A DNA stretch of 64,000 bases from NCBI RefSeq assembly GCF_002937115.1, contig NZ_NHRY01000269.1, positions 1 through 64,000 on the forward strand, read 5' to 3'. Made by a program: the position numbers and the translations under genes. This document shows positions 5,005 to 61,556 of this stretch, one piece after another. How positions within the stretch are numbered: position 1 is the stretch's first letter; each line of letters starts with the position of its first letter. A model generated the notes under the pieces. It was not told where the DNA came from. It made no database searches and saw only the letters and a list, made by a program, of their open reading frames with translations. Source of the DNA: Rhodopila globiformis. GTDB lineage: Bacteria; Pseudomonadota; Alphaproteobacteria; Acetobacterales; Acetobacteraceae.

Positions 5005-5180
5005 CTACAGCAGACCGCAGGTTGGTTGAGACACGGCGACGGCGCACCTCACTCGTCATGGCCCGGCTTGTCCGGGCCACCTATTCCAGCACGTGTGCCG
5101 CGACAGGTGGCCCGGACAAGCCGGGCCATGACGATGAAGACAGGCCGTCTGCGTCCCACCTAACCTGCGGTCTGCTGTAA
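5005..5180. repeat. MITE-like element, copy 1, with REP-B core
   Basis: The terminal inverted repeats are CTACAGCAGACCGCAGGT (5005-5022) and its complement ending at about 5179. Inside, at 5054-5133, sits a perfect REP-like palindrome (CGTCATGGCCCGGCTTGTCC and its complement around a loop). It encodes nothing. Three further copies are at 5473, 22736 and 60637. Confidence 0.85.
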
Positions 5181-5472
5181 CATCGTGGGCATGCGGCAGA
5201 GGCTGCGCTGGCATCCGGGCCCGCCCGCTGTTGCCGGGCGGCGCCGGGCTTGGCGCGCCATGCACAATGAAACTGAGAACTGGAGTCTCGCCATCAATCC
5301 TTTGAACAGCCTTTTAGGTTGAGTAGAGCGAATTGAGGGCTTCCGCGGCGCGAAGCCGCCGCAGAAGCACCGTTGACCCAACGCTGTGATGTCGGGTGGT
5401 TGAATGGCCTGGAACCATTGGAATGTGGTAAGAATGGGTGGCATCGCTGAGTCAGCCAGGGAAGTGCGAACG
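5181..5472. other. Spacer between two MITE-like copies
   Basis: About 290 bases without a supported gene. Neither strand gives a recognisable protein. The segment lies between two copies of the same element and could be a remnant of a larger mobile unit. Confidence 0.35.
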
Positions 5473-5850
5473 CTACAGCAGACCGCAGGTCGGTTGGGAC
5501 ACTGCAGCCCCCTGTCCTCATCGTCATGGCCCGGCTGGTCCGCATAGGCGCTAACATAACGAGGCCGGGGCGGGTCCATTGCCTCCCCGTCATGGCCGGG
5601 CGTGTCCCGGCCATCCGCGCTTCAGCGGCGCGGGGTGGATGGCCGGGACACGCCCGGCCATGACGATAAGGAGACGACCACGCCCTGTTCCCGACTATGT
5701 TGGCGCGGATGCGGCTCGTCCGGGCCACCTATCGCGGCACATGTGCTGGAACAGGTGGCCCGGACAAGTGTCCAGTCTAAACAACAAGTCGGGCCATGGC
5801 GATGAGGGAGCGCCGTCGCCCTGTCTCAATTGACCTGCGGTCTGCTGTAG
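5473..5850. repeat. MITE-like element, copy 2, with nested REP-A and REP-B
   Basis: The outer repeats are CTACAGCAGACCGCAGGT (5473-5490) and its complement (5833-5850). The REP-B core (about 5523-5800) is split by a REP-A palindrome at 5588-5666, flanked by short inverted segments (CGCATAGGCGCTAACATA versus TATGTTGGCGCGGATGCG). A 20-base insertion at 5769-5788 interrupts the right REP-B arm and ends in a repeat of ACAAG. This records at least three successive events. Confidence 0.8.
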
Positions 5851-22735: not shown

Positions 22736-22872
22736 CTGCAGCAAACCGCAGATCGATTGGGAATCGACTGCGGGTGGGACGATCTGCCCCGACCGTCATG
22801 GCGGGCGCAGGGCCGCCATGACGATGAAGGAACGCCCTCGTCCCGTCCCAACCGACCTGCGGTCTGCTGTAG
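22736..22872. repeat. MITE-like element, copy 3
   Basis: The ends are CTGCAGCAAACCGCAGAT (22736-22753) and ACCTGCGGTCTGCTGTAG (22855-22872), diverged but clearly homologous to copies 1 and 2. The core is a short CGTCATGGCGGGCGCAGGGC palindrome. Confidence 0.75.
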
Positions 22873-58678: not shown

Positions 58679-59638
58679 GTGCCGGGCGGCCTGTTCCTGC
58701 CGGCCATCCTGCTGCTGCTGGTGTTTGCCGGCGCCCTGCTGACGTGGCGCCTGGACGCGCGGCAGCGGGCGCTGGCGAGCCGGGTTTCCTCGGTTGCCGC
58801 CGCCGAGCGCATGGGCGCGGCCGAACCGGAGGAAACCCGCGGCATCCGTGTCGCCGCGCCATCAGGTGGCCGCCTCGCCGAGGTGTTCCGGCGGTTGACC
58901 GCCATGCCGGTCGATCTCGACAATGCGCATGTCGTGCCGGTCTGGGCGGTGCATACGGCGGGCGCGGCCGGCTGCGCGGCGGGCTACCTGATCGCGCGTC
59001 TCGGCCTCTCCCGCCAGGCCGCGCTGGCCGTCGGCGCCGGCTGCGGCATTGTCCTGGTGCGCGGCGTGTTCCGCTGGGAAGTCCGCCGCTACGCCGGGAG
59101 CCTGACGAAACAACTGCCGGATATGATCGAGCTGATGGCCAGCACGGTCATGGCCGGCCTGCCGCCGATCGAAGCGCTGCGCATCGCGGCCAGGGACATG
59201 GCGTCGCCAAGCCGCGAGGAATTCGAACGGGTCGTGCAGGAAGTCGGCGTCGGGACTCCGGTCGACGTGGCGCTGATGAACCTGCACCGGCGCACCGGCG
59301 TGCTGGAATATTCGATCATGGCGATGACCCTTGGCGCGCAGATTCGCCGCGGCGGCCGCCTGGTCGAAACGATCCAAATTCTTGGCGAAACGACCCGGCA
59401 ACGGCTGGCGGTGATCGCCCGCGGCCAGGCGCTCGCGGCCGAGGCGCGGATGTCCGCCTATGTCATTGCCTCGATGCCCGTGGTCGGCGGCCTGCTGATG
59501 TCGCTGGTCAAGCCCGGCTACATGGCGCCGCTGTTCCATGATCCGCGGGGCAACACGATGCTGCTGATTGGTTTCGCGCTGCTGGGACTGGGGTTCCAGA
59601 TCATGCGCTGGATGATCCGGGGAGCGATGAGCGATTGA
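58679..59638 (+). CDS. tadB: Tad inner-membrane platform protein TadB
   Basis: The product is 319 residues from a GTG two bases after the cpaF stop. The T2SSF domain is seen in LTKQLPDMIELMASTVMAGL and RRGGRLVETIQILGETTRQR. Three to four membrane helices are present. It works with TadC as the inner-membrane platform. Confidence 0.92.
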   Translation: MPGGLFLPAILLLLVFAGALLTWRLDARQRALASRVSSVAAAERMGAAEPEETRGIRVAAPSGGRLAEVFRRLTAMPVDLDNAHVVPVWAVHTAGAAGCAAGYLIARLGLSRQAALAVGAGCGIVLVRGVFRWEVRRYAGSLTKQLPDMIELMASTVMAGLPPIEALRIAARDMASPSREEFERVVQEVGVGTPVDVALMNLHRRTGVLEYSIMAMTLGAQIRRGGRLVETIQILGETTRQRLAVIARGQALAAEARMSAYVIASMPVVGGLLMSLVKPGYMAPLFHDPRGNTMLLIGFALLGLGFQIMRWMIRGAMSD

Positions 59639-60588
59639 CCCGCCAGCAAGCCGTCCTGTTCTGGGGCCTGCTCGCCGTCGCGATGCTTCTGGCCGCCGCC
59701 GCGGTCGCCGTGCTCGCCCGGGAAGCGTCGCTGCAGACCCTGCGGGTCCGGGTCCGTTCCGTCACCGGCCCGCGCGCCGACGGCGAGGCCGTTGCCGACG
59801 GCTGGCGGCCACGCAAGGCCGTGTCGCTCGTGACCGGCATCGGCGAGTGGCTGCGCCAATCGGCGTGGCTGTACTCGGCCAGGGACATCGACGTGCTGGA
59901 GAACGTCATCGCCGCGAGCGGCCTCAACGTCCGCCGGGCCCTGCCGGCGGTGCTGGGCGGCAAGCTGCTGTTCCTGGTCGCGATCCTGGCTGCCGTCATC
60001 GGCCTGGGCATTGCCCGGCAGGTGACCGTGACCGCATGGATGAGCCTGCTGGCGATGGCGCTGCCGGCCGGGGTCGTCCTGCCGGAAACCGCCCTGCGCC
60101 TGGTTCAGCGCGCGCACATGAAGGCGGTGGAACGCGGCATTCCGGATATCCTGGACATGCTGGTCGCGTGCACCGAGGCGGGCCTGGGCCTGGAAAGCGC
60201 GCTGGAACAGGCCGCCGCCGAAATCCGCGCCACCAATCCCGCGATGGCGGTGACCATGGCCAACTTCCTGGATGAGCTGAAGATCCTGCCGGATCGGCGG
60301 GAAGCCTTCACCAACCTTGGCAAGCGCTCGGGCGTGGAAGGGTTGCGGCGGATGGGGACCATGCTGCTGCAGACGTTGCAGCTCGGCACGCCGCTGGGGC
60401 ACTCCCTGCGGGCGATGGCGGCCGAACTGCGGCGGGAACGCATGCTCCGGCTGGAGGAAAAGGCGGTGAAGCTACCGACTCTGCTGGTTTTCCCGCTGAT
60501 TTTCTGCATTCTTCCGGTCCTGCTGATCACGCTGGTCGGGCCGAGCTTCCTGACATTGATGGACTTGATGAAAAGCATTCACCTGTAG
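59635..60588 (+). CDS. tadC: Tad inner-membrane platform protein TadC
   Basis: The product is 317 residues from a TTG overlapping the tadB stop (TTGA at 59635-59638). The T2SSF domain includes IPDILDMLVACTEAGLGLES and KRSGVEGLRRMGTMLLQTLQ. Four hydrophobic segments. An ATG at about 59683 is an alternative but would cut the first helix. Confidence 0.9.
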   Translation: MTRQQAVLFWGLLAVAMLLAAAAVAVLAREASLQTLRVRVRSVTGPRADGEAVADGWRPRKAVSLVTGIGEWLRQSAWLYSARDIDVLENVIAASGLNVRRALPAVLGGKLLFLVAILAAVIGLGIARQVTVTAWMSLLAMALPAGVVLPETALRLVQRAHMKAVERGIPDILDMLVACTEAGLGLESALEQAAAEIRATNPAMAVTMANFLDELKILPDRREAFTNLGKRSGVEGLRRMGTMLLQTLQLGTPLGHSLRAMAAELRRERMLRLEEKAVKLPTLLVFPLIFCILPVLLITLVGPSFLTLMDLMKSIHL

Positions 60589-60636
60589 AGTGGGCATCAG
60601 ACGTGCGATCTTCATTTCCCGGCTGTTTGCTGAGAG

Positions 60637-60831
60637 CTGCAGCATACCGCAGGTTCGTTCAGACAAAACGACGGCGCTCCTTCATCGTCATGGCGGGCGC
60701 AGGCCCGCCATCCACGCTCTTGGGCGACCTCAGCACCGCAAGCCGTGGATGGCGGGCCTGCGCCCGCCATGACGACCGGGGCAGATCGCCCCGCTCGAAG
60801 CCGGGTCTCAACCTGCCTGTGGTTTGCTGTA
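60637..60831. repeat. MITE-like element, copy 4, at the 5' end of tadD
   Basis: The ends CTGCAGCATACCGCAGGT (60637-60654) and ACCTGCCTGTGGTTTGCTGTA (60811-60831) match the terminal repeats of copies 1-3. The core is a CGTCATGGCGGGCGCAGGCC palindrome with complement ending CCATGACG at about 60776. It ends two bases before the first usable ATG of tadD. Confidence 0.8.
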
Positions 60832-60833
60832 TC

Positions 60834-61556
60834 ATGCTGGGCAGCCTGGCGGCGGGCTGCGCCGGCCCAAGGGCGCCGGAACTGAGCACGGGCGCGCAAC
60901 TGCAACTGGCGGAGACGGCCGATGCGCAGGGGGCTTCGGATATCGCTTTGACCATGTACCGGGCCGCGGCGGCTCGCGCGGACGGCGACGTTTCGGCGCA
61001 GTTGCGCTATGCCGACGCGCTGGCCCGCGCCGGGCGGGTGAAACAGGCGCAGCAGATCCTGACGCAACAGCTTCAGCGCCACCCGGAGCAGCGCGACCTT
61101 GCGCGCGCCTCGGCCATCGTGGACATCATCTCCGGCGACGCGGCCGGGGCAGTCAGCAAGCTGGATCGTTTGCTGGCCGACGCGCCGCATGATGAGAAGT
61201 TGCTCGCGGACAAGGGAGTCGCGCTGGACCTGCTGGGGCGCCATGCCGACGCGCAGGCGCTGTACCGCGCCGCGCTGGCGGTTTCCCCGGATGATGTTTC
61301 GGTCAAGAACGACATGGCGCTGTCGCTGATGCTGCAGGGGCGGCGGCAGGAGGCGCAGGCGGTGTTCGAGACAATCGGCGAGGCGGATGATGCGCCGGCT
61401 CGGGTGAGAACCAATCTTGGCGTGCTGTATGCGGCCGATGGCGATGCGGCCCGGGCGCAGGCGGTCACCAACGGCCAGGTCAGTCAGGACGACCTGATGG
61501 CCCTTGCGAAGGGGTTGCGCACGGCGCCGTCCGGCGTACCTGACGGAAGTCGTTAG
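60834..61556 (+). CDS. tadD: Tad lipoprotein TadD (TPR protein) with altered 5' end
   Basis: The product is 240 residues from the ATG at 60834. The lipobox LAAGC sits only nine residues from this start, too close for a normal signal peptide. TPR-like repeats follow (RYADALARAGRVKQAQQILT; DKGVALDLLGRHADAQALYR; DVSVKNDMALSLMLQGRRQEA). TadD is the outer-membrane pilotin-like lipoprotein of the Tad system. The in-frame upstream sequence back to 60603 is MITE-derived. Just before the MITE, a GTG at 60590 opens GIRRAIFISRLFA, which looks like the lost start of the signal peptide. Export is therefore doubtful. Confidence 0.82.
   Translation: MLGSLAAGCAGPRAPELSTGAQLQLAETADAQGASDIALTMYRAAAARADGDVSAQLRYADALARAGRVKQAQQILTQQLQRHPEQRDLARASAIVDIISGDAAGAVSKLDRLLADAPHDEKLLADKGVALDLLGRHADAQALYRAALAVSPDDVSVKNDMALSLMLQGRRQEAQAVFETIGEADDAPARVRTNLGVLYAADGDAARAQAVTNGQVSQDDLMALAKGLRTAPSGVPDGSR

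Follow-up and report, generated by a model that had tools for sequence, protein, structure and literature searches.

An IS630-type MITE in the putative leader region of the Tad pilus lipoprotein gene tadD of Rhodopila globiformis

Known repeat elements in reading frames and the tadC–tadD junction

According to the accounts cited here, MITE-built signal peptides and in-frame palindromic insertions are already known. The RU-2 MITE of Yersinia forms part of the signal peptide of YPO1552; this protein is putatively exported, its signal is predicted to span 41 residues, and the element makes up its very N-terminus, residues 1 to 30 (Delihas 2007, PMC2759123, PMC2229807). Rickettsia palindromic elements (RPEs) lie in coding genes (Ogata 2000/2002, via PMC10969869), and the RUP element of Streptococcus pneumoniae, whose presumed mobiliser is IS630-Spn1, is described as intergenic (PMC2229807). 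A further class, the CGTC REPs, is described as a CGTC tag followed by an 8- to 9-bp stem starting with AT, a loop of 4 to 5 nt and a CCA tail; the sections of that report bearing on mobility and distribution give these REPs no dedicated transposase and list them as absent from Acetobacteraceae (Di Nocera 2013, PMC3733652). In the same source, MITEs are elements of 70 to 300 bp with terminal inverted repeats of 15 to 30 bp and no transposase.

The element described here shares features with each of these systems. Unlike that of YPO1552, it stands after the probable start and before the lipobox, within the leader of a pilus lipoprotein that is conserved. It can be likened to RUP by description only, as both are small, have ends matching an IS630 element and are inserted at TA. 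As with the RPEs, a palindromic element stands in frame within genes; RPEs, however, are described as having a peptide frame that is conserved (PMC10969869), whereas frames through the present element are open no more often than its composition gives. Its core corresponds to the published CGTC REPs in tag, AT-starting 9-bp stem, 4-nt loop, CCA tail and pairing, but here IS630-type terminal repeats enclose the pair, which occurs in Acetobacteraceae. A literature search on signal-peptide MITEs returned, in the passages retrieved, none in a Tad lipoprotein.

The sequence analyzed is from Rhodopila globiformis (GCF_002937115.1, NZ_NHRY01000269.1, positions 1 to 64,000, forward strand), and this whole 64,000-nt stretch is referred to as the window. 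It carries a tad operon of eight frames, from a prepilin peptidase-like frame through tadD (Table 1). The tadC product is 28 to 55% identical to those of relatives over the matched part, and tadD, which encodes a TPR protein directly 3′ of tadC within the operon, is 42% identical to its best-scoring relative. A pattern scan of genome contigs for close tadD orthologues yielded 57 stretches and no relatives among them.

The initial annotation had placed a MITE-like insertion in the signal-peptide region of tadD, and this reading is borne out. As read from the sequence, a MITE is inserted in that region, between tadC and the lipobox. We examined 29 tadC loci of relatives, finding a downstream lipoprotein frame in 20 and none in nine. 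At those 20 loci, the distance from the tadC stop to the lipobox Cys codon is 37 to 179 nt (median 93.5). The corresponding distance here is 269 nt, which falls to 77 nt when 192 bp are subtracted, as an insertion predicts. Homologues with the short N-terminus that follows the element were not encountered, leaders of ordinary length being present at the same 20 of 29 loci.

Table 1. Features of the tad operon and of the element at the tadC–tadD junction, in window coordinates.
Feature	Position	Strand	Basis
Prepilin peptidase-like frame	52766	+	Open frame
cpaB/rcpC	53321	+	Open frame with domain
Secretin	54151	+	Open frame with domain
tadZ/cpaE-like frame	55981	+	Open frame with domain
tadA	57339	+	Open frame with domain
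tadB	Between tadA and tadC	+	Open frame with domain
tadC, TTG start, T2SSF domain, stop TAG 60586–60588	59635–60588	+	PF00482, E 7.9e-16
GTG frame noted in the initial annotation, 60 aa, out of tadD frame	60590–60772	+	Open-frame list, stop at 60770–60772
tadD (TPR lipoprotein), open frame of 317 aa that begins at GTG 60603 and crosses the element to the stop	60603–61556	+	TPR_19, E 5.2e-16
Left target-duplication copy, TG, probably altered from TA	60638–60639	+	Copy alignment, empty-site pattern
Left terminal inverted repeat, 28 nt including TG	60638–60665	+	8/28 mismatches to right repeat
IS630-type MITE unit of 190 bp, 192 bp or 64 codons when one TA is counted	60640–60829	+	Alignment with genomic copies
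Core, two opposed CGTC-tagged REP units, arms 60685–60716 and 60744–60775	60685–60775	+	Inverted-repeat match
Right terminal inverted repeat, 28 nt including TA	60804–60831	+	Repeat pattern search, copy alignment
Codons for LNLPVVCC from right terminal repeat, tadD frame	60807–60830	+	Translation
Right target-duplication copy, TA	60830–60831	+	Copy alignment
First in-frame ATG 3′ of the element	60834–60836	+	Sequence, open frames
Lipobox LAAGC, Cys codon 60858–60860	60846–60860	+	Sequence and translation

Structure and family of the element

A comparison of nucleotides 60590 to 60860 with the whole genome gave 100 matches, the longest of which (positions 47 to 242 of the query) passes the core and reaches the outer terminal repeats. 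The full element spans approximately 60638 to 60831, with its outer repeats seen by aligning 10 of 30 fetched genomic copies. When a 23-nt terminal-repeat pattern was searched with up to three mismatches, 166 sites were found in the R. globiformis genome and none with the reversed control pattern; with up to two mismatches, the pattern had 43 sites here, whereas the 32 congeners searched had none. The fetched loci include 24 complete terminal-repeat pairs. Exact TA dinucleotides stand at both outer ends in 15 of these, and the other nine, including the tadD copy, have one or two changed bases at one or both ends.

Sites without the element are also present. The pattern TAGGCGC-NN-ACTTAGG occurs 16 times in element-free form, with TA in the middle nine times, TG five times, and AA and a single T once each, and two MITE copies (L046 and L051) have the same TAGGCGC and ACTTAGG flanks with TA on each side. 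In addition, two of 13 DDE_3 (IS630-type) matches, at L100 and L104, end in the MITE terminal repeat followed by TA; at both loci the repeat lies on the side where the transposase frame finishes, the opposite ends being indistinct, and in L100 the frame is interrupted by a stop. Because of the TA ends, the empty sites and the DDE_3 frames with a common terminal repeat, we class the element, on sequence grounds, as a non-autonomous, TA-duplicating IS630-type MITE. Its 190-bp unit, terminal repeats of about 28 nt, multiple copies and lack of a transposase agree with the MITE description, and the TA target duplication typical of IS630 is also represented by a TA at an element-free orthologous site in a PCu(A)C gene, discussed below.

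The element shows signs of both old and recent origin. Its outer repeats differ at eight of 28 positions and identity to the best other match is only 79%, which would indicate age, whereas the core arms are complementary at 32 of 32 positions (31 of 31 in the comparison that also covered the outer repeats), a mismatch-free state suggesting youth. A search for RNA families over the element gave sub-threshold matches only, mostly to miRNAs and arising from the palindrome, and these we judged to be chance hairpins.

Each arm of the core is a CGTC REP. The unit beginning at 60686 reads CGTC-ATGGCGGGC-GCAG-GCCCGCCAT-CCA and fits the published description, although a stem of 9 bp together with a loop of 4 nt does not appear among the family combinations given there (PMC3733652). 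The units form an inverted pair in 22 of the 24 complete copies, and in most of these the pair begins 48 nt in from the left end. The same MITE build is found at positions 101 to 284 of a contig from an Acetobacteraceae MAG (L152, JAFAHH010000375.1), the only match of one exact 26-nt pattern among the genome contigs searched. Eight loci were also retrieved with the core as the only query; terminal repeats flank the core on both sides at one of them and on a single side at two, so most of these units are not within a MITE that can be recognised. The element links CGTC REPs, which have no dedicated transposase in the published account, to IS630-type ends.

The tadD leader and its start site

We think it reasonably likely, from the arrangement of the sequence, that a MITE entered a TA site in the tadD leader with the frame kept, and that the long leader read from GTG 60603 still works. 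The ancestral leader would have run MRSSFPGCLLRA(I/V)MLGSLAAGC, and a non-autonomous IS630-type MITE would have inserted upstream of the lipobox and downstream of the start, for which GTG 60603 is the most likely codon. The unit plus the duplicated TA amounts to 192 bp and thus to 64 codons, none of them a stop, so the reading frame was preserved. Translation from GTG 60603 would then read through the element to give a long leader that Sec and signal peptidase II would still accept, leaving TadD lipidated and the Tad pilus working.

The frame from GTG 60603 is open across the whole element to the tadD stop, and removing 192 bp gives VRSSFPGCLLRAIMLGSLAAGC in frame, the first V being the start Met. 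The present leader ends RSPRSKPGLNLPVVCCIMLGSLAAGC, comprising a basic stretch, a hydrophobic core and the old lipobox. Half of this core is built by the right terminal repeat, whose LNLPVVCC yields LNLPVVCCIMLGSLAAGC with a hydrophobicity on par with the signals of relatives: the best ten-residue hydropathy (KD10) of the present leader is 2.62, compared with 2.03 to 3.22 in 16 relatives. Downstream, the TPR body is intact, with 231 residues past the lipobox Cys that are free of stops and frameshifts. The open frame, the leader hydropathy and the intact TPR body together favour read-through from GTG 60603. The leader was thus probably split yet patched in frame, the repeat-encoded residues are probably now part of the export signal, and TadD is probably still exported and lipidated. 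Of the two outcomes that the initial annotation had offered, a disabled pilus or a repeat-encoded extension serving as leader, the second is better supported; pilus loss is not indicated by an insertion of 192 bp that is in frame and stop-free.

Several observations sit less easily with this reading. The left copy of the target duplication has TG in place of TA. Counted from GTG 60603, the lipobox Cys is residue 86, which is an unusual position. Cleavage of Pseudomonas aeruginosa TadD occurs after residue 16 (PMC10499894), and lipidation involves a Cys after a short signal peptide; here LAAGC is kept and the preceding stretch is long. Furthermore, the reconstructed empty-site leader has a KD10 of 1.78, below all 16 relatives (minimum 2.03), which counts against the leader reconstruction; it may be incomplete, or the flanks may have changed.

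We also considered the open frame through the element as a sign of coding selection and rejected this. Over the 24 complete copies, 55 of 144 frames are open, so stop-free passage through the element is ordinary. Nine long frames running through other complete copies were scanned for Pfam domains, which were present in three (carboxyl transferase/AccD-like, CHRD and short-chain dehydrogenase) and absent from six.

The initial annotation had the terminal repeat ending two bases before the first ATG of tadD. The spacing is correct, as the repeat ends with TA at 60831 and is followed by TC and then ATG 60834, but that codon is the first in-frame ATG only of the stretch after the element; GTG 60603 and ATG 60690 lie in frame upstream. 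The Shine–Dalgarno-like energy before GTG 60603 (−5.2 kcal/mol) is the best of seven candidates and is close to the 25th percentile of random places (−5.3), so the start signals are weak. In a predicted RNA fold, the two terminal repeats are paired (z −8.7), with GTG 60819 buried and GTG 60603 unpaired. The read-through frame also contains KRRRSFIVMAG (window 60660 to 60700), which we take to be like a twin-arginine motif; the likeness is taken as chance in an Arg-rich frame.

An unlikely alternative is that the leader has been destroyed, with translation beginning at ATG 60834 or at no useful start, so that TadD is unexported and the pilus is lost or reliant on another TadD. From ATG 60834 to the Cys codon at 60858 there are, as had been annotated, only nine residues, and these carry no charge and have a KD10 of 1.44. 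Elsewhere in the genome, another TadD-like lipoprotein, whose leader MKLHTLASLCIAAALAACASP is ordinary, is encoded beside a secretin-like frame (L167, G000:C60:28500-32804) and is a possible backup. Against loss of function, tadD has kept its TPR scores as well as its uninterrupted body, the frame from GTG 60603 is open, and cpaB, secretin, tadZ-like, tadA, tadB and tadC genes upstream are all open frames with their domains. If read-through from GTG 60603 is correct, annotating 60834 as the start would leave the leader out.

It is quite improbable that translation begins instead at GTG 60819, within the terminal repeat, so that the element itself would supply a minimal leader, MVCCIMLGSLAAGC. 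This codon is in the tadD frame and would provide a hydrophobic core (KD10 2.39), but no basic residue precedes the core, the Shine–Dalgarno energy is weak (−3.7), and the codon sits in the paired right repeat, which would hide it unless ribosomes arrive from upstream.

Least probable is an ancestral leader in the frame of GTG 60590 (MGIRRAIFISRLFA...), coupled to the tadC stop and with its link to tadD hidden by a later change of 1 to 2 nt: this GTG, one base past the tadC stop, does open a basic and then hydrophobic stretch, VGIRRAIFISRLFAES, that ends at the element, as initially noted, but the suggestion that this is the lost half of the leader fails, since the frame differs from that of tadD, stops at 60770–60772, and still enters the tadD body out of frame without the TA-bounded unit, so that an extra indel would be required, and its core contains a Glu. 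GTG 60590 as the ancestral start was ruled out on frame.

In-frame copies at leaders and the wider distribution of the element

A second MITE copy (L042, G000:C264:27280-27476, minus strand) is in frame within the leader of a gene that sits behind ctaG and encodes a PCu(A)C copper chaperone. A congener (G020) has an element-free PCu(A)C that is 75% identical, with TA at the matching place. In local alignment with this orthologue the element-free join scores 64.5 and the filled sequence 67.0, so the score alone does not discriminate; we take the orthologue as evidence because its frame is continuous and carries the TA. Enrichment of the MITE at leaders is not significant (two of 48 ends, compared with 27 of 3000 random places; approximately 0.4 expected, Poisson P ~0.07). 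A second in-frame leader case in the same genome makes the tadD event worth testing.

If the tadD leader works, a conserved lipoprotein signal absorbs a 64-residue palindromic insertion and residues from a transposon end serve as its hydrophobic core, which would be a route for mobile repeats to reshape export signals. A broader and speculative proposal, which we hold only tentatively, is that, in this lineage, CGTC REPs are spread by IS630-type MITEs carrying pairs of them and that these MITEs give rise to new leaders time and again. The NLPxVCC of the repeat would offer a ready-made core, and in-frame landings in leaders, such as those of TadD and PCu(A)C, would be tolerated as n-regions accept extra residues.

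Further observations concern the element itself. The occurrence of CGTC REP pairs inside IS630-type terminal repeats may explain the mobility of CGTC REPs. The first bases of the PCu(A)C copy supply the stop codon of ctaG. Finally, at a looser threshold, more terminal-repeat matches appear in the window at 5008 to 5847 and 22739 to 22869.
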